Source: a bacterium
Lineage (GTDB): Bacteria; BMS3Abin14
Reading direction: 5' to 3'
NCBI GenBank assembly: GCA_022865845.1
Contig: JALHUC010000230.1
Span: forward strand, 1-13,767
DNA length: 13,767 bases
Made by a program: the position numbers and the translations under genes. The stretch's first letter is position 1. Every line of letters starts with the position of its first letter. A model generated the notes under the pieces. It ran no database searches, was not told the origin of the DNA, and saw nothing but the letters and a program-made list of their open reading frames with translations. This document shows, in pieces, positions 2,930-12,346 of the stretch.

Positions 2930-2930
2930 A

Positions 2931-2993
2931 ATTCCAGATTCCAGATTTCAAATTCCAAATACTAAACTCCAGATTCCAAATCCCAGAATCCAG
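2931..2993. repeat. Heptad array, nine units, left partner
   Basis: Nine consecutive 7-mers in exact register: ATTCCAG, ATTCCAG, ATTTCAA, ATTCCAA, ATACTAA, ACTCCAG, ATTCCAA, ATCCCAG, AATCCAG. The array starts 1 nt outside the start codon of the ABC ATPase gene. In that gene's mRNA it reads as repeated YTGGAAT ending right before AUG. Its inverted partner is at 3530-3557, on the other side of the four-helix-bundle gene. Confidence 0.9.
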
Positions 2994-3048
2994 AGCAGCT
3001 CAATAACTAAAACTTATACTCAATCAGCTCATTGTACTTCTGTGCCTG

Positions 3049-3444
3049 TTATCTGTCCTTGTATTTTCTTCCCCTCATCGTAGAACCTTTCAAATATTTC
3101 ATAAATCCAGACAGCTGCCTGCTAATGCTCATAACTTTATCATGAAGCTGCTGAAAATCTTCTTTTGTTACTAATCCCATATCGTATCCAGCAAGAAGTT
3201 GAGATCGTAATTCGCCAGCTGAACCTTTTGCTAGGGACAAAAACTGTAATAACTCTTTATTGCCATCACGCTCAAATCCTTCAGCTATATTGGACAAGAT
3301 GGAAAGAGCGCTTTTTTTCAATTGATCCTGAAGAAAGTACTCTCCCTTCATTAGTTTGGACTTGGTGACATGGAATACATTTTTAGTCAATTTGCGTGCA
3401 TCGTTCCAGACCTCGGTCCTTTCATAAGATTTACTTCCTGGCAT
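3049..3444 (-). CDS. Four-helix-bundle protein (S23 / 23S rRNA intervening-sequence protein family)
   Basis: A 131-aa basic helical protein. ERTEVWNDARKL near the N-terminus, then LKKSALSILSNIAEGFER and FLSLAKGSAGELRSQLL, are the hallmark stretches of the S23-type four-helix-bundle family (known from 23S rRNA intervening sequences, and related in fold to the Avd protein of diversity-generating retroelements). The biochemical role of the free-standing members is not known to me. The ATG at 3444 is preceded by AGGAGG at a 5-nt spacing, which makes it better than the ATG 18 nt upstream. The gene is much poorer in GC than its neighbours: bases 3121-3300 count 68 G+C of 180 (38%), against about 60% in sampled lines of the flanking genes. 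It also lies between two inverted heptad arrays. Both facts suggest acquisition. Confidence 0.85.
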   Translation of the reverse strand: MPGSKSYERTEVWNDARKLTKNVFHVTKSKLMKGEYFLQDQLKKSALSILSNIAEGFERDGNKELLQFLSLAKGSAGELRSQLLAGYDMGLVTKEDFQQLHDKVMSISRQLSGFMKYLKGSTMRGRKYKDR

Positions 3445-3529
3445 GAAATCCTCCTGCTGCATTGATTTTAAAATTTACATAGCCTTACCTTGCAACCGGG
3501 GTGCCAGAAGATCTCGCAGTTGAATTTAT

Positions 3530-3557
3530 CTGGAATCTGGAATTTGGAATTTGGAAT
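3530..3557. repeat. Heptad array, four units, right partner
   Basis: CTGGAAT, CTGGAAT, TTGGAAT, TTGGAAT in register. The last T is the first base (plus-strand view) of the TGA stop codon of the glycosylase gene, so the array begins exactly where the coding sequence ends. It is in inverted orientation to the array at 2931-2993. Confidence 0.9.
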
Positions 3558-4213
3558 CAAGCGCGCGCACAAACACTCTCAACAGGACACCCTTCACAGC
3601 ATGGCGCACGCTTGGCACACCTTTGTTTGCAATGAGTAACGATTAACGCGTGATATTCGTTGAACATCCCTGTTTCGGGTTCCAGGTTGTCCATGAACAG
3701 GTCCTGCACATCGTGGTATTTTGCTTTTTCATCGCACAGGCCCAGCCGTGAAAAAAGCCGCACCGTGTAGGCATCCACAACAAAGACAGGCCTGTCCAGC
3801 GCGTAGAGGAGGATAGAGTCAGCGGTTTCCGGCCCGATTCCCTTCAGGGAGAGAAGCTCTGCCCTCATCTCGCCGGTATCGTATCCTCCCATACAGGACA
3901 GATCACCTCCGTACCGGTCCTTCAGAAATTGGCAAAAACTCCTCAGCCTGGCCGACTTCTGACGGAAATAGCCAGAAGACCGTATTGCCTCCTCCAGACG
4001 GTCAGGAGTAAGGGAGAGGATGCCCTCTGGAGTCAACTCGCAGACCTCTCTGAGGCTTGCCATGGCCTTTTCAACGTTGGCCCAGGAGGTGTTCTGAGTC
4101 AGGATCGCCCCCAGCATGACCTCAAAGGGGGTGTCGGCGGGCCACCAGGACTGTTCTCCATACGCTTTCAGCAGGAGTTCATAGATATCAATAAGGAGGG
4201 CTGGTTTGGTCAT
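3557..4213 (-). CDS. Endonuclease III-family DNA glycosylase, probably monofunctional (MagIII-like)
   Basis: This 218-aa base-excision-repair glycosylase has the HhH-GPD fold. The helix-hairpin-helix is LLSLKGIGPETADSIL (120-135), with the catalytic aspartate D147 in VFVVDAYT. C199-X6-C206-X2-C209-X5-C215 is the [4Fe-4S] cluster loop of the EndoIII/MutY family. At the position of the EndoIII lyase lysine (K120 in E. coli, GRKTA) there is E129 (GPETA). This predicts a glycosylase without AP-lyase chemistry, as in the 3-methyladenine glycosylase MagIII, which has GKESA there. The substrate is therefore more likely alkylated purine than oxidised pyrimidine. The ATG at 4213 has no clear Shine-Dalgarno; a TTG at 4231, inside a heptad array, is an alternative start. 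Heptad arrays lie on both sides. Confidence 0.87.
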   Translation of the reverse strand: MTKPALLIDIYELLLKAYGEQSWWPADTPFEVMLGAILTQNTSWANVEKAMASLREVCELTPEGILSLTPDRLEEAIRSSGYFRQKSARLRSFCQFLKDRYGGDLSCMGGYDTGEMRAELLSLKGIGPETADSILLYALDRPVFVVDAYTVRLFSRLGLCDEKAKYHDVQDLFMDNLEPETGMFNEYHALIVTHCKQRCAKRAPCCEGCPVESVCARA

Positions 4214-4224
4214 AGGAGTTTCTG

Positions 4225-4325
4225 ATTCCAAATTTCAGATTCCAAATTCCAGAAAGACCAGAAGTAACAACCTGAAGGATTTGTGTTTAGTTTTTCTCTG
4301 GGATCTGGATTCTGGAATCTGGAAT
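4225..4325. repeat. Short inverted-repeat element built of heptads
   Basis: Left arm 4225-4252: four heptads (ATTCCAA, ATTTCAG, ATTCCAA, ATTCCAG) followed by AAAGACC. Right arm 4298-4325: CTGGGAT, CTGGATT, CTGGAAT, CTGGAAT. The arms are complementary around a core of about 45 bp, so the transcript could fold into one long hairpin. It fills the gap between the glycosylase start and the RDD-protein stop. Confidence 0.85.
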
Positions 4326-4352
4326 TCAGGGTCTAGTAATGTACCCATTTAT

Positions 4353-4901
4353 CTAGACCTTGATAACCACCGTTCTCGCGATCTTATCATGCCAGGCCTG
4401 GTTCTTTTTATCCCACAGGGCCCAGAGAAAACCGAGGAAGGTCATAAAGAAAACGGAAACGGCGTATCCCAGGGTCCGCATAAAGGCGCGTCCGTAGCCG
4501 ACCGGGGAACCGTCTGTGCGCTGGACTCGGATCCCCAGCAGCATCTTCCCCAGGGTCTGTCCCCCTTCCCCCGTTAAAAGGGTGAAGTAAAGTATAAAAA
4601 GAACAGCTGAAAGGAATAGAGCGATATCCAGGTGGGCCATTCCTGGATCGGTGCCGCTGCCAATCCTGTAGGCGAACCTTACGATGTCCGCGATGATGCT
4701 GAGTGTAAGCCAATCAAGGGCAAAAGCCGCCAAACGCCGGAAGAACCCTGCCCTGACCGCGGGTTGCTCCTTCCGGGTGAACTGCACTCCGATCATCCCG
4801 GAGGGGGTGGACAATGAGCCTATCAACGGCTTTTTACAGGATGTACAAAATATTGTGCCGTAGTTGGTGGCTCCGCAGGAAGGACAGGTTCTCGTCGCCA
4901 T
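4353..4901 (-). CDS. Zinc-ribbon RDD-family inner-membrane protein
   Basis: A 182-aa protein with an N-terminal zinc ribbon (C6, C9, C19, C22: CPSC and CTSC) and a C-terminal RDD domain. The RDD hallmarks are visible: FFRRLAAFALDWL with the R and D in the first membrane segment, a second segment at IALFLSAVLFILYFTLLT, the GQTLGKMLLGIRV motif, a third segment around VSVFFMTFLGFLWALW, and WHDKIARTVVI at the end. RDD proteins are poorly characterised; some have been linked to transport. I assign no specific role. The start at 4901 was chosen because GAGGAG lies 8 nt upstream and it puts the zinc ribbon at the N-terminus; the reading to 4937 runs into the heptad array. It lies between two inverted heptad elements. 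Confidence 0.85.
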   Translation of the reverse strand: MATRTCPSCGATNYGTIFCTSCKKPLIGSLSTPSGMIGVQFTRKEQPAVRAGFFRRLAAFALDWLTLSIIADIVRFAYRIGSGTDPGMAHLDIALFLSAVLFILYFTLLTGEGGQTLGKMLLGIRVQRTDGSPVGYGRAFMRTLGYAVSVFFMTFLGFLWALWDKKNQAWHDKIARTVVIKV

Positions 4902-4921
4902 GTTATATGCTCCTCGGGTTG

Positions 4922-5064
4922 ATTCCATATTCCACATTCCAAATGGCAGAGATAAAATTCCATATTCCCGATCTCAAATTCCAAATAATAAAAAGACAAG
5001 TATTCTCACTTCATATAGGCTGCCTATCACTTTTCTTTGGAATCTGGATTCTGGAATCTGGAAT
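4922..5064. repeat. Inverted-repeat element with 9 + 4 heptads
   Basis: Left arm 4922-4984: nine 7-mers in register (five close to ATTCCAN, the rest degenerate), followed by AATAAAAAGAC. Right arm 5037-5064: TTGGAAT, CTGGATT, CTGGAAT, CTGGAAT, preceded by TTTTC. The core between the arms is about 50 bp. The right arm stops 5 nt from the rsmE stop codon; the left arm begins just outside the Shine-Dalgarno of the RDD gene. The size of the left arm (63 bp) equals that of the array at 2931-2993. Confidence 0.87.
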
Positions 5065-5069
5065 TCGCT

Positions 5070-5798
5070 TTACATGTCTCCAAAGAGATACTGCATCAGT
5101 GCAGCGCCGGCAGTGACAGCGGTTTCCGTGCGAAGGACTCTCGATCCCATCCCGGCAACCTTAAACCCTTTATCCTTGAGCAGCTCCACCTCATCGACGG
5201 TGAGGCCGCCCACGGGACCTATGAGCATGAGGACGGATCCAGGAGGTTCGATCCCCTCTGTCACCTCTTTCAGATGCCTGACAGTTTTTTCTTCCCAGAA
5301 AACTACAGACAGATCGTAAGGGTCGGTTTTAAGCTCTTTTAATGATACCGGTTCGGAAATGGTGGGGAAGCGGGATCGTCCACACTGTTTGCAGGTTGAA
5401 ACGATAACTCGTTTCAACCTGTCTAGCCGCTTCCAATAACCCCTGATCTTCAATTCAGTGCGTTCGGTCAGTAGGGGGATAAAATCAGCGGCGCCAAGCT
5501 CAGTGCCCTTCTGTATCGCCCAATCGAAACGGTCACCCGGTACGATCCCCATGGCAATGGTAAGCTTGAAAGAAGGGATAGGCTCAACTTCCTTGTCCGA
5601 AAGCGTGAGGGTACTCTTCTCTTTATCCATAGACTTGATCAGGGCGTTCCATGAGGCTCCCTCGCCGTCCACGATCTTCACTGAGTCTCCGGTACCCAGT
5701 CGGAGAGTCAAACGGGCGTGCCGCAGTTCGTCGCCTTCCAGGATGGCCGATTTCCCAGTTATCCTGGAAGGAGGTATGTAAAAAGTCGGTAGGGACAT
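5070..5798 (-). CDS. rsmE: 16S rRNA m3U1498 methyltransferase RsmE
   Basis: This 242-aa SPOUT-class enzyme methylates N3 of U1498 in the 30S decoding region using S-adenosylmethionine. The N-terminal PUA-like part includes EGDELRHARLTLRLGTGD (21-38). The family signature QKGTELGAADFIPLLTERT follows (96-113), then KQCGRSRFP (137-145). The C-terminal trefoil knot has IGPVGGLT (193-200) and the SAM-loop MGSRVLRTETA (217-227). The family usually has GPEGG; here the glutamate is V196, a notable change, although the rest of the knot is intact. The ATG at 5798 has no obvious Shine-Dalgarno. It lies downstream of prmA, a common order, but a tautomerase gene sits between them. Confidence 0.95.
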   Translation of the reverse strand: MSLPTFYIPPSRITGKSAILEGDELRHARLTLRLGTGDSVKIVDGEGASWNALIKSMDKEKSTLTLSDKEVEPIPSFKLTIAMGIVPGDRFDWAIQKGTELGAADFIPLLTERTELKIRGYWKRLDRLKRVIVSTCKQCGRSRFPTISEPVSLKELKTDPYDLSVVFWEEKTVRHLKEVTEGIEPPGSVLMLIGPVGGLTVDEVELLKDKGFKVAGMGSRVLRTETAVTAGAALMQYLFGDM

Positions 5799-5806
5799 GG
5801 GAAATC

Positions 5807-5893
5807 AGTCCAGAGTCCAGAGTCCAGAGCGAAGCATCGCCATGGATAATGAATAGATATTATTCTCAATCCTCAATTCGTAATCCTTAATCT
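5807..5893. repeat. Two heptad arrays between tautomerase and rsmE
   Basis: AGTCCAG repeats three times without change at 5807-5827. At 5866-5893 lie four related 7-mers: TCAATCC, TCAATTC, GTAATCC, TTAATCT, reaching into the tautomerase stop codon. Unlike most gaps, both arrays here have their C-rich strand on the plus strand (same orientation), so they do not make a hairpin with each other. Confidence 0.75.
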
Positions 5894-6086
5894 ATTTTCT
5901 TCTGTTGGAAACCGTTTCCCCGCCGATGCCCCAGTTGTCGGTGTCTATTTCGTCGATGACCACCACCGTGGTGGCAGGGTTCTTGTTCAGGACCTTTACT
6001 AAAAGGTCTGTCGCTCCCTTGATAAGGGCGGCCTTTTGTTCGGCGGTGGCGCCATCTTTTGTAATTTTGATGTTAACAAAGGGCAT
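5892..6086 (-). CDS. 4-oxalocrotonate tautomerase family protein
   Basis: A 64-aa protein of the size typical for 4-OT subunits, which assemble as hexamers. It begins Met-Pro-Phe-Val-Asn-Ile, so removal of Met exposes Pro1, the catalytic base of the superfamily. TDNWGIGG near the C-terminus matches the conserved 4-OT segment with an aromatic residue at about position 50. The ATG at 6086 has GGAGG at a 6-nt spacing and fixes Pro1; longer readings would bury the proline. Many such small proteins are annotated as tautomerases without a known substrate, and no aromatic-degradation genes are nearby, so a role in catechol catabolism is not supported. It separates prmA from rsmE and has heptad arrays on both sides. 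Confidence 0.88.
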   Translation of the reverse strand: MPFVNIKITKDGATAEQKAALIKGATDLLVKVLNKNPATTVVVIDEIDTDNWGIGGETVSNRRK

Positions 6087-6104
6087 GAAAATCCTCCGGA
6101 TTTC

Positions 6105-6132
6105 AGTTCCATGTTCCAACTTCCAGGTTCCA
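6105..6132. repeat. Heptad array, four units, upstream of the tautomerase gene
   Basis: AGTTCCA, TGTTCCA, ACTTCCA, GGTTCCA in register, followed by GGAAAGAC. The AAAGAC that follows the C-rich arm also appears at 4253-4258 and near 4990. The array is about 20 nt upstream of the tautomerase start codon. Confidence 0.8.
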
Positions 6133-6219
6133 GGAAAGACAATACAAGAAGAGGAATAGTACATCATGGAGGTTGTTTTATAGAACAGATATTAAATTGT
6201 CTTAATGGGTCTGGTTTGA

Positions 6220-6254
6220 GTTTCCAATGCTAAATACGAAATCCGGAATCCGAA
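6220..6254. repeat. Degenerate heptad array downstream of prmA
   Basis: GTTTCCA, ATGCTAA, ATACGAA, ATCCGGA, ATCCGAA: five 7-mers in register, more diverged than the other arrays. It ends 5 nt from the prmA stop codon and has the same orientation as the array at 6105-6132. Confidence 0.6.
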
Positions 6255-6259
6255 ACCCC

Positions 6260-7144
6260 TTACTCGTTTCCAATTGGGGAAACGAGTAAGGCCGCCACCC
6301 AAACCTTCTCGTTCATGATCCGCTCCACCCTGAGGCCGCACCGGGTATACGCCTCCATCACCTCTTCACTCTCGTCTTCCAGGAGACCGGAGATGATCAG
6401 TAAGCCGCCAGGTTTCAGGTGCTCAGCAATGTTGGAAGCCAGCCTTTTGAGCAGTGATGCGGAAAGGTTGGCTGTGATGATGCCGTATAAACCTTCAGCG
6501 GTTTCGATGCCTCCCTCCGCGACCCGGACGCGATCATCAGCGTTGTTGTTCTGAACATTGTCATAGGCTACAGCAGTGGCCATGGAGTCGATGTCCACCG
6601 CGAGGACATCCCCAACGCCGAGAATGGCCCCGGCAATGGCCAATATGCCGGACCCGGTTCCCAGGTCGAACATCCGTTCTGGAGCCTGGTCGCCGATACA
6701 ATCATTAAGTAATACCAGGCACATCCTGGTTGTGGCGTGGCTCCCGGTTCCGAAGGCCAATCCTGGGTCAAGAACGATCTCCTGGTCCCCAGTGGGAGTG
6801 CACCACGTGGGTCGAATTACAAGTCTGTCTGAAATATGTACGGTAGTGTGCTGGGACCGGAATACGGCCATCCAGTCCTCTTCCGGAAGCTCCTCAATTT
6901 CATATCGCGAACCCTCAGGAAGCAGCTTCATCTGCACGAGGTTGCTCAGCTGTTTCTCGATCCGCAGCAGGTGATCTTCACTTTCATCGGGCTCCAGAAA
7001 GGCGTCTATAACGCTAAGCCCGGATTCCGCCCGGATGCATACGCCTCTACCGGTCAGGGTTGTGAGGAAGTCTGATACGGGATCTTCCCTCTCCGGTGGA
7101 ACTCTTACTGTAACCTGTTTCCAGATGCGCTGATTCATCTTCAT
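6260..7144 (-). CDS. prmA: Ribosomal protein L11 methyltransferase PrmA
   Basis: This 294-aa cytosolic class I SAM-dependent methyltransferase trimethylates ribosomal protein L11. The length is typical. The N-terminal about 90 residues are the L11-binding region, ending in LPEEDWMAVFRSQ. The family signature LDPGLAFGTGSHATT is at 125-139 and SAM motif I is FDLGTGSGILAIAG (159-172). ITANLSASLLKRLA carries the N of the usual NI/NL motif, and GGLLIISGLLEDE follows. The start is taken as the ATG at 7144; the ATG at 7138 is equally possible, and neither has a good Shine-Dalgarno. Downstream order prmA - tautomerase - rsmE suggests an old prmA-rsmE pair into which a gene was inserted. Confidence 0.95.
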   Translation of the reverse strand: MKMNQRIWKQVTVRVPPEREDPVSDFLTTLTGRGVCIRAESGLSVIDAFLEPDESEDHLLRIEKQLSNLVQMKLLPEGSRYEIEELPEEDWMAVFRSQHTTVHISDRLVIRPTWCTPTGDQEIVLDPGLAFGTGSHATTRMCLVLLNDCIGDQAPERMFDLGTGSGILAIAGAILGVGDVLAVDIDSMATAVAYDNVQNNNADDRVRVAEGGIETAEGLYGIITANLSASLLKRLASNIAEHLKPGGLLIISGLLEDESEEVMEAYTRCGLRVERIMNEKVWVAALLVSPIGNE

Positions 7145-7282
7145 ATATTAACACAACACCCGAAATCAGACGAGAAAGGCGTCAAATTTCTGGTTTTGAT
7201 TGACAAGCGTTTATGTTTGTGCTCTATTTCACATCGAAGGGAAGGGCGCTTCTCTTCAGGGGGGGACCCGGGGTAGAGATAT

Positions 7283-7324
7283 CCCGGGTTTCTTATGTCT
7301 GCACACAGACATAAGAAACCCGGG
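7283..7324. repeat. Perfect 19-bp palindromic hairpin
   Basis: CCCGGGTTTCTTATGTCTG (7283-7301) is exactly complementary to 7306-7324, with a 4-nt CACA loop. No T-run follows on either strand, so it is not a standard intrinsic terminator. A second CCCGGG-containing stretch (ACCCGGGG, 7266-7273) precedes it. The right foot touches the first heptad of the array at 7325. Confidence 0.85.
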
Positions 7325-7531
7325 AAGCCCAAACTCCAAAGCCTAAAGCCCAAAGTTTGAAATTCACAACAGGACAAACAATACGACTTTAAATCTGAAA
7401 TTTCCTGTTTATATAATAGGCTAGAGCTTCAATTCGAGATTATCCGGGAGAGGAACTGGGTGTCCGCTTGTTTGACCTTTCTTTGGGCTTTGGGCATTGG
7501 TCCTTGGGCTGTATCGCTTTGGCCCTTGGCC
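7325..7531. repeat. Inverted heptad arrays of the AAGCCCA / TTTGGGC variety
   Basis: Left arm 7325-7366: AAGCCCA, AACTCCA, AAGCCTA, AAGCCCA, AAGTTTG, AAATTCA, all in register. Right arm 7482-7531: TTTGGGC, TTTGGGC, ATTGGTC, CTTGGGC, then less regular units to CTTGGCC, preceded by GACCTTTC. The period and layout equal those of the ATTCCAR arrays, but the base sequence is distinct, so this is a second sequence type of the same family. The right arm ends about 5 nt from the ptsP stop codon. Confidence 0.75.
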
Positions 7532-7535
7532 TGTT

Positions 7536-9848
7536 TCAGTGAAGTTCTGTTGGTTGAAATACCACTTCCGCCCGTATCATCTTCTCAAACCTCGACAAGA
7601 TCCTCCTCACATCGGCTGACGTTCCTGCTTTCAGAGCTCGGCGGGCAGCGCGCAGGCAGTCCTCGTGCTTGATAAGGCGGATGGATCGCTTGATAAGAGG
7701 TATGGAGGAGGCGTTCATGGAAAGCTCAGTGATCCCCAGGCCTATAAGCAGTGGTGTCCAAAGCGGATCCGCTGCTATCTCCCCGCAGACAGCGATGGGT
7801 ACCCCACCCTCTCTTGCCGCTCTCGCGGATATGGAGATGAGCTTTAAGACGGCCGGGTTCATAGGGTCATACATGTGGGCCACCCTTTTATTGTTCCGGT
7901 CCACCGCAAGTGTGTACTGGGTGAGGTCGTTGGTGCCGATGGAGAGGAAATCCACCTCCCTGACCAGACTTTCTGCCAGGAGGGCTGCCGAGGGAACCTC
8001 TATCATAAGTCCAATCCGCACGGAGCTGTTGTAAGGGATCTTTGAGGACTTGAGCTCCATCCTGGATTCATCCAGGAGCCTCCGGATCCCTTTCACCTCC
8101 TCAAGGGTGGATACCATGGGTATGAGTATGCTCACCGGTCCGTGGCGGGCCGCCCGCATGATCGCCCGGATCTGGGTCTTGAAGATGTCAACCTTCTCGA
8201 GGAACATCCTGATGGACCTCCAGCCCAGGAAGGGGTTTTCCTCAACGGGGAAGTTCAGATAGGGGATGGTCTTGTCTCCTCCCACATCCAGGGTCCTGAT
8301 GTTGACCATCTTTCCCTTTGCCCCCTCCACCATGCTCCGGTATATCCTGTACTGTTCGTCCTCAGTGGGCAGGATGGAGCGGGCCATGAACGGAAGTTCT
8401 GTCCGGTAAAGGCCGATCCCCTCTGCGCCGTAGTAATTAATGAATTTAAGGTCAGACAGCAGGCCGACGTTGGCCATCAGGTCCACTTTATATCCATCCA
8501 GAGTTATAGCCGGCAGCTCTTTTTCGCTGACAAGCTCCACAACGTGCCTTGTGTAGTCCTTCAACAGTCGCTTGTACTCTTTTACAACGTTCTCGTCCGG
8601 GTTTAAGAATATGGTACCTGTGTTTCCGTCCACGATGATGTAATCACTCGGTTGTACGACCTCGAGCAGTTCCTCAACCCCTACCACGCAGGGTATTCCG
8701 AGGGAGCGGGACAGGATGATGGCGTGGGAGGTGTGGCCCCCGGCCGATGTTGCGACACCCTGGACCTTTTCCGTGGAAAGGACGGCAGCGTCTGAAGGGG
8801 TGATCAATCTGGTGATGAGGATGCCTTCCTCGTGGAAATGGAGAGAGCCCTCCCTGGATGGGTCGGAGAGGAGGCGTATCACTCTGCGCCCTACATCCTC
8901 AATATCGACGGCTCTGTCCTTGAGGTACTGGTCATCCATATCCTGGAAACTTCTCAGGTATCCTGCCAGGACGCTTTTGACTGCGTAAAGCGCAGTGGTT
9001 CCGGAATCGATCACTTCGAAAACCTTCTGATTAAATCCCTGGTCTTCCAGCATCATCAGGTGGATATTGAATATCTTTGCATCTTCCTCGCCCAGCTGTT
9101 CCTGCACCCGCTCACGGAGAACCTCTATCTCCTTTTGTCCGGCTTCAGCGGCCTCTCTGAACTTTTTCTTCTGCCCCTCCGGATCATCCGTATGCTCTTC
9201 GACGATATAGTGAAAATCGTCAGAGATCTCCATGAGAACAGCAGGACCCATGGCGATGCCAGGGGTGGCGGAGGTTCCGTGCAGGACGAGGGAGGAGCGC
9301 TCTGGTTCGAGGGAGGGTGAGGTGCCCGGGCTCCCCGTTGTTAACTCGCGCAGAAGCCTCGCGTTTGTCACGACACCCGCAACCTGTCCTGCTATGGTGT
9401 TAAAAAGCTGCAGTTCCTGGGTGTTATAGGTTTTGTTGTCGCGATCCTGGACCACCAGAACGCCGATGGGGCTCTTGCGGTTGATGATAGGGACACCCAG
9501 GAAGGTTTTGAACTTTTCCTCCTGGGTCACAGGGAAGTATTTGAAACGAGGATGTTCGTCGGCGTTCTGAACGATGAGGGAGGTCATGCTTTCGAAAACC
9601 AGCCCGGTGAGCCCTTCTGAGGGCTTCATTTCAACTTTCCCTATGGCTGTTGGGTCCAGCCCTTCTGTGGCGACCAGAACGAGCCGGTTCTTTTCCTCAT
9701 CATACAGGTACAAAGAGCAGACATCGGTGTCCATCTCCATCTTTACCAGTGAAACGACATTGTCTACTGTCTCCCTGAAATCGTGAGAATCAGCGATCAT
9801 ACGGGTGATGCGGTCGAGCAGGCCGATCTGAAACTTAACAGAGCTCAC
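7536..9848 (-). CDS. ptsP: Phosphoenolpyruvate-protein phosphotransferase PtsP (enzyme I-Ntr) with GAF domain
   Basis: About 770 aa. This cytosolic enzyme takes phosphate from PEP and passes it to an HPr-type protein (NPr) in the regulatory nitrogen PTS. An N-terminal GAF domain (about 1-165, MDTDVCSLYLYD, LGVPIINRKSPIGVLVVQD) is followed by the enzyme I part: LHGTSATPGIAMGPAVL, the phosphohistidine motif AGGHTSHAIILSRSLGIPCVVG with active His, then GIGLYRTELPFM, IRTLDVGGDKTIPYL, NPFLGWRSIRMF, LMIEVPSAAL, SIGTNDLTQYTLAVDR and VCGEIA of the PEP-binding barrel. The start is uncertain. GTG at 9848 (AAAGGA about 10 nt upstream) places the GAF domain at the N-terminus. A TTG at 9980 would add 44 residues read out of a hairpin and repeat, which I consider unlikely. 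No NPr or EIIA gene is in the window. Confidence 0.93.
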   Translation of the reverse strand: MSSVKFQIGLLDRITRMIADSHDFRETVDNVVSLVKMEMDTDVCSLYLYDEEKNRLVLVATEGLDPTAIGKVEMKPSEGLTGLVFESMTSLIVQNADEHPRFKYFPVTQEEKFKTFLGVPIINRKSPIGVLVVQDRDNKTYNTQELQLFNTIAGQVAGVVTNARLLRELTTGSPGTSPSLEPERSSLVLHGTSATPGIAMGPAVLMEISDDFHYIVEEHTDDPEGQKKKFREAAEAGQKEIEVLRERVQEQLGEEDAKIFNIHLMMLEDQGFNQKVFEVIDSGTTALYAVKSVLAGYLRSFQDMDDQYLKDRAVDIEDVGRRVIRLLSDPSREGSLHFHEEGILITRLITPSDAAVLSTEKVQGVATSAGGHTSHAIILSRSLGIPCVVGVEELLEVVQPSDYIIVDGNTGTIFLNPDENVVKEYKRLLKDYTRHVVELVSEKELPAITLDGYKVDLMANVGLLSDLKFINYYGAEGIGLYRTELPFMARSILPTEDEQYRIYRSMVEGAKGKMVNIRTLDVGGDKTIPYLNFPVEENPFLGWRSIRMFLEKVDIFKTQIRAIMRAARHGPVSILIPMVSTLEEVKGIRRLLDESRMELKSSKIPYNSSVRIGLMIEVPSAALLAESLVREVDFLSIGTNDLTQYTLAVDRNNKRVAHMYDPMNPAVLKLISISARAAREGGVPIAVCGEIAADPLWTPLLIGLGITELSMNASSIPLIKRSIRLIKHEDCLRAARRALKAGTSADVRRILSRFEKMIRAEVVFQPTELH

Positions 9849-9931
9849 GTATGGTTGTTCCTTTCCGGTGTTATTTTCAGGATGTTTTCCACAAAATGAA
9901 TACTCTGGATTCGATAATTTTAATATACCTT

Positions 9932-9964
9932 GAATTGCCTTACCTTGCCAAGGAAAGGCAATTC
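9932..9964. repeat. Hairpin in the ptsP leader
   Basis: GAATTGCCTT (9932-9941) pairs perfectly with AAGGCAATTC (9955-9964), with an inner CCTTG/CAAGG palindrome. Its right foot merges into the heptads at 9961. It lies 84-116 nt upstream of the chosen ptsP start and is not followed by a T-run. Confidence 0.7.
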
Positions 9965-10091
9965 CAGAATCCAGATACAAACGCTCCTTCGAAAAACCGG
10001 TTTACTATATTGTCTGTTATAAATGGCAAAAAATATGGAGCTACGATGTGGTTTGGTCTTTCTTTGGAATTTGGAATCTGGAATCTGGAAT
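9961..10091. repeat. Inverted heptad element between radC-like gene and ptsP
   Basis: Left arm 9961-9974 has two clear heptads (ATTCCAG, AATCCAG) and a third degenerate one. Right arm 10064-10091 has TTGGAAT, TTGGAAT, CTGGAAT, CTGGAAT, preceded by GGTCTTTC, the mirror image of the GAAAGACC that follows the left arm at 4225-4252. The right arm ends 4 nt before the radC-like stop codon. Confidence 0.82.
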
Positions 10092-10095
10092 TAGT

Positions 10096-10689
10096 TTACA
10101 ATGCGCCTGCGTCTGAAAAAGAATAATAGGACTGTGCGGCTACGATCACGTGGTCCAGCATCCTTACCCCCATGAGGGAGGATGCCTGGCTTATCCTTTC
10201 GGTGAGAAGTCTGTCTTCCGGTGATGGTGTTGGATCTCCCGATGGATGGTTATGAAGGCATATGATGCTGGGGGCGGACCTGATAACCGCCTGCCTGACC
10301 ACCTCCGAGGGGTGAATATGGACAGTGTTGACGCTGCCCAGGGCGCAAAGGTCCTCGGAAAGGATCCGGTTGCGTGTATTCAAGGTGAGAACCATGAACT
10401 GTTCTCTGGGCAAAGAGACCAACCGGGAACGGAACAGGTCATACACATCTTTGCTGCAGGAGATAGACAGCCCCTCGGTAGGTTCATAAACAAGCTGCTG
10501 GAGCAGTTTTGGCAAGGCCAGGATTGCTTCAGCCCTGCGCGGGCCGATGTACCGCATTCTGAGAAGACTTTGTTTGTCCAGATGAAGGATATCGCTGATG
10601 CTGCAGTGGCGCAGCACTTCTCTGGCTGCCCTGTGGCCTATTATGGGTGAAAGGGTGGTCACTCCCGTCCTGTCATCATCCCGGGTCAT
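10096..10689 (-). CDS. radC: RadC-family JAB-domain protein
   Basis: A 197-aa protein. A helix-hairpin-helix-like region (LLRMRYIGPRRAEAILAL, about 42-59) precedes the C-terminal MPN/JAMM-fold domain. The metal site is clear: HNHPSGDPTPSPED with H146, H148 and D159, matching the HxHPSG...PSxxD signature, followed by LDHVIV. At 197 aa it is somewhat shorter at the N-terminus than typical RadC. The name is historical: a direct DNA-repair role for RadC is not well supported, and the function of the family is uncertain. The ATG at 10689 has GGAGG at a 6-nt spacing (an ATG 4 nt upstream is out of frame). It is transcribed divergently from the yjbQ-family gene. Confidence 0.92.
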   Translation of the reverse strand: MTRDDDRTGVTTLSPIIGHRAAREVLRHCSISDILHLDKQSLLRMRYIGPRRAEAILALPKLLQQLVYEPTEGLSISCSKDVYDLFRSRLVSLPREQFMVLTLNTRNRILSEDLCALGSVNTVHIHPSEVVRQAVIRSAPSIICLHNHPSGDPTPSPEDRLLTERISQASSLMGVRMLDHVIVAAQSYYSFSDAGAL

Positions 10690-10749
10690 TCATGTCCTCC
10701 AGTGTGCTGTTTACCCACCAGGGTACCGTTAACAAAAGGTTGCCCTTAA

Positions 10750-10778
10750 TGGACTTTTGTTGGCTCATCCGTTATAAC
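10750..10778 (+). promoter_or_regulatory. Candidate promoter of the yjbQ-family gene
   Basis: TGGACT (10750-10755, four of six to TTGACA), a 17-nt spacer and TATAAC (10773-10778). The predicted start of transcription is near 10785, only about 4 nt before the ATG, and no Shine-Dalgarno is present. An inverted repeat, AACAAAAG (10731-10738) with CTTTTGTT (10754-10761), overlaps the -35 box and could be an operator. Confidence 0.4.
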
Positions 10779-10788
10779 GCCATTCAAG

Positions 10789-11695: not shown

Positions 11696-11714
11696 AAGCG
11701 ATAAAAGACGATTT

Positions 11715-11971
11715 ACCGCAGAGTACGCGGAGGAACGCAGAGGTAAGTAATGATCTGGGGAACCAGTACTTTATTGATACCTCCACCTACCCATTGTGTC
11801 CTTCATGTTGAATAAAAAACGCTTTTTCAGAAACTACTCTTCCCCTTTCAGATTGCACCCTTCTTTTTTCCAACCTTATGAATTATTTTGTGGATTATTT
11901 ATCGCATCCAAAGGATTCGCTCTTCCCTCCTGTCTTTGGTGTCCTCCGCGTCCCTCCGCGTACTCTGCGGT
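11715..11971. mobile_element. MITE-like element with 29-bp inverted repeats (ACGCGGAGG type)
   Basis: The left end 11715-11743 starts ACCGCAGAGTACGCGGAGG and the right end 11943-11971 is its reverse complement with 27 of 29 bases matching. Inside each arm the motif ACGCRGAGG recurs about every 10 nt. The core of about 200 bp is AT-rich and has no convincing gene. It is a different repeat family from the heptad arrays. I believe similar ACGCGGAGG-rich repeats occur in other environmental bacteria, but could not check. Confidence 0.6.
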
Positions 11972-12121
11972 TAAACAATACCGCATTTAAAGGAGCCGTT
12001 TTGCCTGATTCCGGGTTCTCGTATTTATTTCACCCTCCCCTCAAGGGAGAGGAAGAGTAAGGAAGGTGATTATTGTAGGCTCTGCCCGGAATGACGGCAA
12101 CCAAGTTTCGTGGAGACGAAC
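11972..12121. other. Non-coding stretch upstream of the trp leader, with a small imperfect palindrome
   Basis: CTCCC (12035-12039) pairs with GGGAG (12045-12049), and an outer CACC/GGTG pair frames 12031-12068. It resembles REP-like intergenic palindromes. Nothing else recognisable is seen between the MITE-like element and the trp promoter. Confidence 0.35.
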
Positions 12122-12150
12122 TTGACTTTATGGCGAGCGTTTGGTATTTC
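12122..12150 (+). promoter_or_regulatory. Candidate trp operon promoter
   Basis: TTGACT (12122-12127, five of six to consensus), a 17-nt spacer and TATTTC (12145-12150, weak -10). Transcription would start near 12157, about 3 nt before the leader-peptide ATG. The weak -10 makes this tentative. I saw no clear TrpR operator. Confidence 0.4.
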
Positions 12151-12159
12151 CTTTCAATC

Positions 12160-12243
12160 ATGAATATCAAAGAGCATAACAGCGCATTCAATGCTAATTG
12201 GTGGTGGCACAGGAAAACTGCAGGGGAGGGTCCGTGCCGTTGA
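12160..12243 (+). CDS. trpL: trp leader peptide with three consecutive Trp codons
   Basis: A 27-codon reading frame, ATG at 12160 to TGA at 12241. It contains NANWWWHRKT: Trp codons at 12199, 12202 and 12205. Position, size and the following terminators make it a classical attenuation leader. When charged tRNA-Trp is scarce the ribosome stalls at these codons and changes the RNA fold downstream. No Shine-Dalgarno precedes the ATG. An in-frame ATG at 12130 would give 37 residues and a fourth Trp codon, but would lie inside the proposed promoter. The Trp run and the terminators are plain in the sequence; the exact start is uncertain. Confidence 0.85.
   Translation: MNIKEHNSAFNANWWWHRKTAGEGPCR
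12202..12242 (+). promoter_or_regulatory. Leader 1:2 (pause) hairpin of the trp attenuator
   Basis: 12202-12210 (TGGTGGCAC, covering Trp codons two and three) pairs with 12234-12242 (GTGCCGTTG): five Watson-Crick pairs at the loop side and four G-U pairs at the base. A ribosome stalled on the Trp codons would block this stem. A candidate antiterminator can then form between 12226-12233 (GAGGGTCC) and 12276-12284. Confidence 0.55.
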
Positions 12244-12269
12244 TTGGGTAATTTGTACCAGATGACTAC

Positions 12270-12303
12270 ACCGCGGGTTCTCTCGAACCCGCGGTTTTTT
12301 TTT
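12270..12303 (+). terminator. trp attenuator terminator (3:4 hairpin, T1)
   Basis: CCGCGGGTTC (12271-12280) is perfectly complementary to GAACCCGCGG (12285-12294), with a TCTC loop and nine T (12295-12303). It lies 27 nt after the leader-peptide stop and 44 nt before trpE. This is the expected structure when tryptophan is plentiful. Confidence 0.93.
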
Positions 12304-12334
12304 GGGGTCGCGGGTAACGCGGCCCCATTTTTTT
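12304..12334 (+). terminator. Second intrinsic terminator directly before trpE (T2)
   Basis: GGGGTCGCG (12304-12312) pairs with CGCGGCCCC (12318-12326): nine pairs with one G-U, loop GGTAA, then A and seven T (12328-12334). It begins on the base after the T-run of T1 and ends 1 nt before the trpE ribosome binding site (AGGAGG, 12336-12341). Its 5' arm can instead pair with the 3' arm of T1. Confidence 0.85.
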
Positions 12335-12346
12335 CAGGAGGAGATC

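Follow-up and report, generated by a model that had tools for sequence, protein, structure and literature searches.

The intergenic gaps of a 13,767-nt stretch of bacterial DNA (contig JALHUC010000230.1 of NCBI GenBank assembly GCA_022865845.1, lineage BMS3Abin14; hereafter the window) hold short tandem arrays with a period of 7 nt, and we propose that each pair of arrays bounds a small mobile element built on a gene of the IVP/S23 family, or is a remnant of that element. The element would be an intergenic relative of the intervening sequences (IVSs) of 23S rRNA that spreads as a mobile element, a reading to which we assign a probability of roughly two in three. At the level of sequence, the paired arms, the gene that they enclose, the match between the arms of one copy, the tie of repeat period to IVP clade, near-identical copies at different sites, and the presence, absence or internal deletion of copies at corresponding gaps are established.

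Inverted heptamer arrays enclose an IVP gene

Between the ABC ATPase and HhH-GPD genes the window carries an intact gene for a four-helix-bundle protein that matches PF05635 (23S_rRNA_IVP; E 4.7e-29) as well as TIGR02436 and has a solved relative in 2gsc (E 7e-14). The arrays on either side fit each other in inverted orientation (2931-2993 with 3528-3558: inverted score 20, direct score 6.5), and the layout typical of the window is (ATTCCAR)n at lower coordinates, a loop, and (YTGGAAT)n at higher coordinates. To classify arrays, the best inverted and the best direct partner within 700 nt were compared, with a margin above 3 required. Among the nine window arrays with a best period of 7 or 8 in Tandem Repeats Finder (TRF), a set that excludes 2931-2994 and 4219-4253 (filed under period 14), six were clearly inverted, none was direct and three were neither (Table 1).

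The original prediction, made from the letters alone, held that 7-mer arrays occupy each of the eight gaps from the ABC ATPase through the radC-like gene, and TRF together with reading by eye bore this out (8 of 8 gaps). A scan of the window at lags 3-12 (at least 25 of 35 matches) was passed by lag 7 alone, so these arrays are not a product of chance. The two longest arrays were rightly given nine units each, 2931-2993 taking nine 7-nt steps and 4922-4984 staying in register for nine, several units of the latter being degenerate by eye. Arrays also reach start and stop codons as claimed, with 2931 beside the ABC start, 3558 at the HhH-GPD stop and 10092 just before the radC-like stop at 10096. 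That the remaining gaps are free of arrays is correct for 7-mers at 831-1181 and 10690-10788 and incorrect for 11696-12346, which holds an inverted pair of ~10-nt units.

Minus-strand RNA of three gaps folds better than shuffled sequence (PrmA-ptsP, z -5.6; HhH-RDD, z -3.8; ptsP-radC, z -3.5), and that of four others does not do so clearly (ABC-IVP, -2.0; RDD-RsmE, -1.5; RsmE-tautomerase, 0.1; tautomerase-PrmA, +1.1). The IVP-HhH gap alone scores +0.8 and the whole 2930-3560 stretch -1.0, little better than shuffles, while the gap at 11696-12346 reaches -4.1 on the plus strand, its coding side.

Table 1. The IVP gene and the repeat arrays of the window, with the arrays called by TRF at period 7
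Feature	Position	Strand	TRF period-7 array	Remarks
Outer arm of IVP element	2931..2993	.	2931-2994	nine 7-nt steps, ATTCCAR type, beside ABC ATPase start; inverted partner of 3528-3558
IVP/S23 four-helix-bundle gene, intact, 131 aa	3049..3444	-		between arms 2931-2993 and 3528-3558
Other arm of IVP element	3528..3558	.	3528-3558	YTGGAAT type, 4.4 units, ends at HhH-GPD stop
Left arm of gene-less inverted pair, HhH-GPD to RDD gap	4219..4253	.	4225-4251	TRF
Right arm of HhH-GPD/RDD pair	4297..4325	.	4297-4325	loop 43 nt; inverted 16.5, direct 6.5
Left arm, RDD to RsmE gap, degenerate	4922..4984	.	4922-4941	TRF for 4922-4941 only; remainder by register
Right arm of RDD/RsmE pair	5038..5064	.	5038-5064	inverted 13.5, direct 6
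AGTCCAG array, no clear inverted partner	5807..5829	.	5807-5829	inverted 7.5, direct 7
GTTCCAG array, no clear inverted partner	6106..6134	.	6106-6134	inverted 8.5, direct 9.5
AAGCCCA arm, PrmA to ptsP gap	7325..7355	.	7325-7355	inverted 17.5
CTTTGGG arm of PrmA/ptsP pair	7481..7510	.	7481-7510	inverted 17.5
Short left arm, two units, ptsP to radC-like gap	9961..9976	.		by eye, below TRF cut-off; pairs with 10063-10092 in fold
Right arm of ptsP/radC-like pair	10063..10092	.	10063-10092	inverted 14.5, direct 6.5
Arm of ~10-nt-unit inverted pair	11717..11743	.		TRF; inverted match
Other arm of ~10-nt-unit pair	11941..11969	.		TRF; inverted match

Arrays and IVP genes across the genome

The window is contig C73 of a draft genome of 2.86 Mb in 662 contigs (G000), throughout which three successive NNTCCAR units matched 190 times and the pattern read backwards 24 times. 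In 20 unselected contigs (87 kb), TRF found 32 intergenic arrays at period 7, compared to 2 and 6 at periods 6 and 8; 8 period-7 arrays lay within open reading frames (ORFs), although ORFs make up a fraction of 0.70, and one dinucleotide shuffle yielded 2 arrays at period 7. The arrays thus extend beyond the window, favour gaps over genes and keep a 7-nt spacing in excess of 6 or 8 nt, all as the original prediction expected. Its view that some copying or selecting mechanism is needed where period is better conserved than sequence also stands. The enrichment in co-directional gaps that it proposed to test for was not found in G000: arrays were present in 7 of 14 co-directional, 4 of 7 divergent and 4 of 4 convergent gaps of the unselected contigs, and in 37 of 69, 8 of 19 and 8 of 10, respectively, when all 41 contigs (20 unselected, 20 chosen for arrays or IVP, and the window) were counted.

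The same preference was seen in the sister genome G006 (200 kb: 47 arrays at period 7, 17 at 8 and 3 at 6; shuffle, 4 at period 7), and 200 kb of G003 showed a weak period-7 peak (12 in gaps, 7 in the shuffle). Inverted partners outnumbered direct ones by 15:7 among 49 arrays of the unselected G000 contigs and by 25:4 among 77 of the selected ones, and likewise in G006 (31:2 of 83), G007 (10:3 of 41) and G001 (6:1 of 19). When matches to two ATTCCAR units in G000 were collapsed to 43 arrays, neighbours within 800 nt of each other were convergent in six cases, divergent in one and the same way round in one. Six of the 43 lie in the window, which makes up 0.5% of the genome's bases; this clustering might suggest local spread or conversion around an IVP element with the same unit, and it is biased, since the window was picked for its arrays.

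Six IVP matches were found in G000, that of the window included. Two of the others have inverted arrays on their flanks, of GATTACC-type 7-mers (L010) and of GGTGACRC-type 8-mers (L011). At L013, whose contig begins inside the gene, 8-mers follow the gene; 8-mers also adjoin the partial frame of L014, below the period-score cut-off of 1.45, and the sixth match (L009) has loose repeats only and fails the period score.

IVP genes in other bacteria tend to lie between inverted arrays

IVP genes were detected in 73 of 193 sampled genomes at E <= 0.001 (70 above the family cut-off), with up to 19 matches per genome, and in none of 14 well-known control genomes. Relatives occur in 18 plasmid records, and a search of viral contigs for the window's type of IVP gave no confirmed case. 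To measure whether such genes have matching arms, the left flank was scored against the reverse complement of the right flank, a score of at least 16 counting as strong. Among GTDB-species loci (73 scored from the best 80 of 404 related stretches, 7 with short flanks being dropped), 44 of 73 IVPs were strong, compared to 6 of 223 other ORFs at these loci. Genomes across Bacteria were then joined to the set, with 170 of 182 distinct IVPs scored at first and 216 of 232 in the end; 127 of 216 were strong, compared to 7 of 282 control ORFs drawn at the 182-IVP stage before the last loci were added. At the GTDB-species loci, the arms listed consist of tandem repeats, chiefly with units of 8 or 9 nt, and come from Cyanobacteria, Chloroflexota, Bacteroidota, Planctomycetota, Armatimonadota, Nitrospirota and others.

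Each arm matches its partner in the same element better than the arms of other elements with that period. Mean fit was 20.6 at period 7 against 9.5 for permuted partners (highest of 2000 permutations, 11.8), 23.4 against 11.2 at period 8 (highest 14.2) and 36.4 against 21.1 at period 9 (highest 32.7), and the own partner was the best one for 33 of 44, 23 of 49 and 6 of 13 elements, respectively; among nine closely related cyanobacterial elements, cross-pairs often fitted as well as own pairs. The ends share no common sequence and are defined by period and pairing. Since units vary between copies and match within a copy, fold-back copying or conversion between arms is indicated.

At the 140 of 182 loci with both neighbours present, the order was +IVP+ in 78, +IVP- in 24, -IVP+ in 19 and -IVP- in 19. 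When 20 kb was read from nearly each genome, 5 of 10 genomes with IVP had intergenic 7/8-nt arrays, and 0 of 10 genomes without it did, there being not a single such array in 186 kb of the latter. One genome (G019) has 19 IVP matches and zero 7/8-nt arrays in the 20 kb read.

Repeat period goes with IVP clade

In a tree of 109 IVPs, the midpoint branch (support 99/97) parts a side on which 40 of 50 proteins have period 7 from one on which 54 of 59 have period 8 or 9, and the tree needs 16 changes of period label as opposed to 44.7 with shuffled labels (none of 200 shuffles so low). A larger tree comprised 142 of the 232 IVPs (period score at least 1.45, period 7-9, protein of at least 85 aa without a stop; three IVPs with period 10 or 11 were excluded from the period table). 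Its split (SH-aLRT 98), chosen as the branch that best separates the periods rather than by midpoint rooting, delimits a clade A with 66 IVPs at 7 nt, 13 at 8 and 2 at 9, and a clade B with 4 at 7 nt, 47 at 8 and 10 at 9, with 22 label changes compared to 55.4 after shuffling (again 0 of 200 so low). A stricter period threshold of 1.6 kept the shape of the table (7 nt/8-9 nt: clade A 38/9, clade B 1/36).

The GTDB-species loci were collected with a clade-B query and many others with a clade-A query, which makes the sampling of the overall table uneven, and the few alignment columns leave many forks open, so tables drawn within hosts are fairer. Within the window's bacterial family, clade A counts 11/0 and clade B 1/6 (7 nt/8-9 nt; Fisher 4e-4), and in seven hosts that hold both clades the counts are 12/2 and 2/8 (Fisher 0.003), these two tables overlapping each other. 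In the sampled bacteria, the sequences thus tie repeat period to IVP clade.

This bears on whether the arrays could be simple sequences of 7-8 nt that hosts make by replication slippage and in which IVP genes merely insert as a preferred target. Family members without a detected IVP do carry arrays, G000 and G007 differ by the loss or gain of a 7-nt unit (see below), and G000 has 38 intergenic 7/8-nt arrays in 87 kb compared to its six IVP genes genome-wide. Yet a host-made array would track the host, whereas period tracks IVP clade within one and the same host; the arms, moreover, are inverted and fit their own partner, and intergenic 7/8-nt arrays were missing from the stretches read of the ten IVP-free genomes. 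We therefore regard a host origin as unlikely. That the IVP protein itself sets the repeat length, its two clades making or keeping inverted arrays of 7 nt or of 8-9 nt with free sequence, fixed period and arms copied from each other, is a bolder idea that we hold only tentatively and judge rather doubtful.

Copies recur at different sites and replace one another

Five Nostoc units (L066, L074, L078, L088 and L107) are 87-97% identical over 491-546 nt, and their alignments end at or in the arrays, the sequence outside being seemingly unrelated by eye. L066 and L074 lie at different sites of one Nostoc genome, and the arms of L078 are bracketed on the outside by a 12-nt direct repeat. Other close pairs represent the same locus in related species, such as L093 and L103, alike over 6.9 kb.

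Corresponding gaps of sister genomes were compared by eye at loci that happened to overlap, a sample that is not systematic. Between the ABC and HhH genes, G000 carries the IVP element, whereas G007 and G008 lack it and have other short repeats instead. In the HhH-RDD gap, G006 carries a full IVP element with ATCTCAR arms, G007 carries ATCTCAR arms around an apparently internally deleted IVP, and G000 carries the gene-less ATTCCAR pair. The C59/C60 locus has an IVP element in G007 and a gene-less pair of another unit in G000; at the C283/C31 locus the IVP of G000 corresponds to a GIY-YIG-like ORF in G007, and the adjacent gap shows the reverse, with an IVP in G007 and a gene-less pair in G000. 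The short GIY-YIG-endonuclease-like ORF (L184, on G007:C31, reverse complement of 8258-9065) is itself near short repeats. The units differ in abundance as well, with two successive ATCTCAR units matching 55 times in G000, 176 in G006 and 225 in G007 (0-2 when read backwards) and two ATTCCAR units 63, 29 and 11 times (0 backwards). The full and deleted copies in the HhH-RDD gap of G006 and G007 provide one case in which a non-autonomous copy would derive from a gene-bearing one, and we conclude that the gene-less pairs are largely remnants of the IVP element.

Alternatively, the pairs may be hairpins selected for regulation or RNA processing (mRNA stability, termination or translation control), with the IVP protein as an RNA-binding partner. 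The folds of the HhH-RDD and ptsP-radC gaps speak for such a role, as does the recurrence, by eye, of ATTCCAR-type pairs with differing loops in the ptsP-radC gap of G000, G006 and G008, and passages of PMC4679880 propose a regulatory role for TAACTGA repeats. However, unit types differ between sister species in most window gaps, the ptsP-radC gap of G007 holds another set of arrays, near-identical copies lie at different sites, and arrays are no less frequent in divergent and convergent gaps than in co-directional ones, which together make selected hairpins an improbable account.

Two further observations concern these gaps. The ptsP-radC gap of G007 (L165 14466-15231) spans 765 nt with at least four repeat types, as if elements had been nested by insertion. 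The tautomerase-PrmA gap of G000 and G007 differs by one stretch of exactly 7 nt, beyond the 6106..6134 array, and is nearly identical otherwise (6087-6259) next to a flanking stretch of ~86%, pointing to recent exchange or constraint.

Relation to described repeats and elements

The IVS of Coxiella 23S rRNA consists, in the passages of PMC4990558 drawn on here, of an S23 ORF within complementary ends; directly ahead of the ORF stand tandem heptamers, two to three regular ones and one degenerate, whose number varies between strains, and an RNase III site lies where the first of them begins. The same passages regard the IVS as selfish or possibly once mobile and assign IVP/S23 genes no known function. 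An S23/IVP ORF within complementary ends is common to the IVSs of Coxiella and Leptospira and to the window element. Whereas IVSs lie in rRNA genes and are excised by RNase III, the window copy lies between protein genes, and elements of its type differ further in that both arms are arrays, copies are many and the period goes by IVP clade. The window element is thus not a 23S IVS, because it lies outside rRNA (an Rfam scan of the window gave no match), although gene and plan are the same. This shared plan suggests that intergenic copies form a wider population of such elements.

The statement of the original prediction that no counterpart is described was too strong, since the sources consulted report heptamer arrays for Xanthomonas, Nostoc, Beggiatoaceae, Cyanobacteria, Bacteroidetes and the Coxiella IVS. 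GGGAATC arrays of Xanthomonas and GGGGA(C/T)T arrays of Nostoc are intergenic heptamers as in the window, and two Xanthomonas genomes contain 70 and 75 such pairs in inverted orientation, but the passages cited treat them as quadruplex-forming and generally without association with mobile elements (PMC4692102), a paper whose text contains neither 'S23' nor 'four helix'. TAACTGA arrays of Beggiatoaceae, some Cyanobacteria and Bacteroidetes also are intergenic 7-nt arrays near start codons, yet consist of one unit in direct orientation with a single inverted case, the passages containing no link to S23 (PMC4679880).

Such direct heptamer arrays, of the TAACTGA or STRR kind, differ from those of the window, where six of nine are inverted and none is direct, and resemble the arrays of G002 and G003. 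TCCAGAG and TCCAATG arrays occur in G001, G002 and G003, and as G002 and G003 have no inverted-partner excess and G002 no IVP, they may be another kind of array.

The Avd proteins of diversity-generating retroelements are related four-helix-bundle proteins (PMC10053308, in the part consulted), but no reverse transcriptase was found among the ten annotated window proteins, which include those around the IVP gene (template and variable repeats were not searched for), and two of four IVPs matched the Avd model, at 46.6 and 23.1 bits, under its cut-off of 80.

In the open-licence PMC literature we found no paper connecting tandem arrays to S23/IVP genes that lie outside rRNA, or period to protein clade. 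Passages of PMC8700078 and PMC10910872 mention the family and not repeats, PMC4596501, on a tandem repeat inside a miniature inverted-repeat transposable element (MITE), contains neither 'S23' nor 'four helix', and none of the passages cited on heptamer arrays links arrays outside rRNA to an S23 gene.

Other features of the window

Beside the AAGCCCA array, the PrmA-ptsP gap holds a second, perfect hairpin (CCCGGGTTTCTTATGTCTG and its complement, 7268-7334), and the stretch 7227-7302 is 93% identical in G008, a member of another genus (L169), exceeding the surrounding genes. In the gap without 7-mers at 831-1181, a 17-nt unit (GACAATCAAAATGATAT) is repeated 2.6 times (984-1027). The motif CCAAAGAAAG, which adjoins several arrays, did not exceed expectation in total, with 13 hits at one mismatch in 230 kb of G000 against 13.6 expected.

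Discussion

The original prediction captured the conservation of period and the spread of the arrays through the genome, and overlooked their inverted pairing, the enclosed IVP gene, the link to IVP across phyla and the turnover of units between sister species. A complete copy is ~460-650 nt long, its one IVP/S23 gene standing between a short tandem array and the inverted form of that array, and sits in gaps between genes, reading with its neighbours more often than against them. In a transcript, the arms could form a stem that places the IVP gene in its loop, much like the 23S rRNA IVSs that RNase III excises, and excision of the stem, perhaps likewise by RNase III, may render an insertion between genes nearly harmless; a cut that falls between genes would cause little damage, so that intergenic elements would be tolerated. 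Copies would spread by transposition, in which the IVP protein may act, and arrays may be made by slippage or by fold-back copying of one arm from the other. In the window's genus many copies would have lost the gene and persist as hairpin pairs or single arrays, with unit types replacing one another between species.

Several results weigh against this proposal. Of the 216 scored IVPs, 89, about four in ten, fall under score 16, and 19 of 142 break the period rule. Arrays are few in other IVP-bearing genomes (6 in 200 kb of ten genomes), so the array load of the window's genus is exceptional, while G002, G005 and G010 have TCCAR arrays (184, 20 and 81 matches) without a detected IVP. An inverted excess is absent from G002 (2:5 of 21 arrays) and G003 (1:4 of 22), so that inverted pairing is a trait of the window's genus and of only part of its relatives. 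In the window itself, the arrays at 5807..5829 and 6106..6134 are partnerless and their gaps do not fold, and the corresponding gaps of sister species, instead of being cleanly empty, usually hold an array of another type. The IVP-bearing unit encodes no known nuclease, transposase or polymerase, no genome-wide search for a transposase having been made. Finally, the elements show weak end duplications without a set length, which reach at least 8 nt in 14 of 104 elements (3.6% of mixed pairs) and at least 10 nt in 2 of 104 (0.3% of mixed pairs).

Such duplications, together with the small size, inverted ends, many copies and many gene-less members, could also be explained by ordinary miniature transposable elements that depend on an unrelated transposase and carry the IVP gene as a passenger. 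In REP/REPIN sequences with their RAYT transposases and in bacterial MITEs, gene-less inverted elements outnumber gene-bearing ones. The window elements, however, were found without a transposase (the same limit of search applying) and have ends defined by period and pairing rather than by sequence. One would not expect a passenger gene to foretell repeat period from host to host, nor do ends without a common sequence and duplications without a fixed length suit such elements, and we consider a passenger gene very improbable.

An IVP-based mobile element remains our preferred explanation, and the tie of IVP genes to inverted arrays, with a period that goes by clade, gives the family a testable role. 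It could unite heptamer arrays in gaps, rRNA intervening sequences and the relatives of Avd, suggests that period and pairing are what identify the ends of such an element, and would explain why the gaps of some genomes are filled with fast-changing hairpins. If the IVP protein does set the repeat length, this would be a mobile element with ends defined by measured spacing and self-complementarity, not by sequence.

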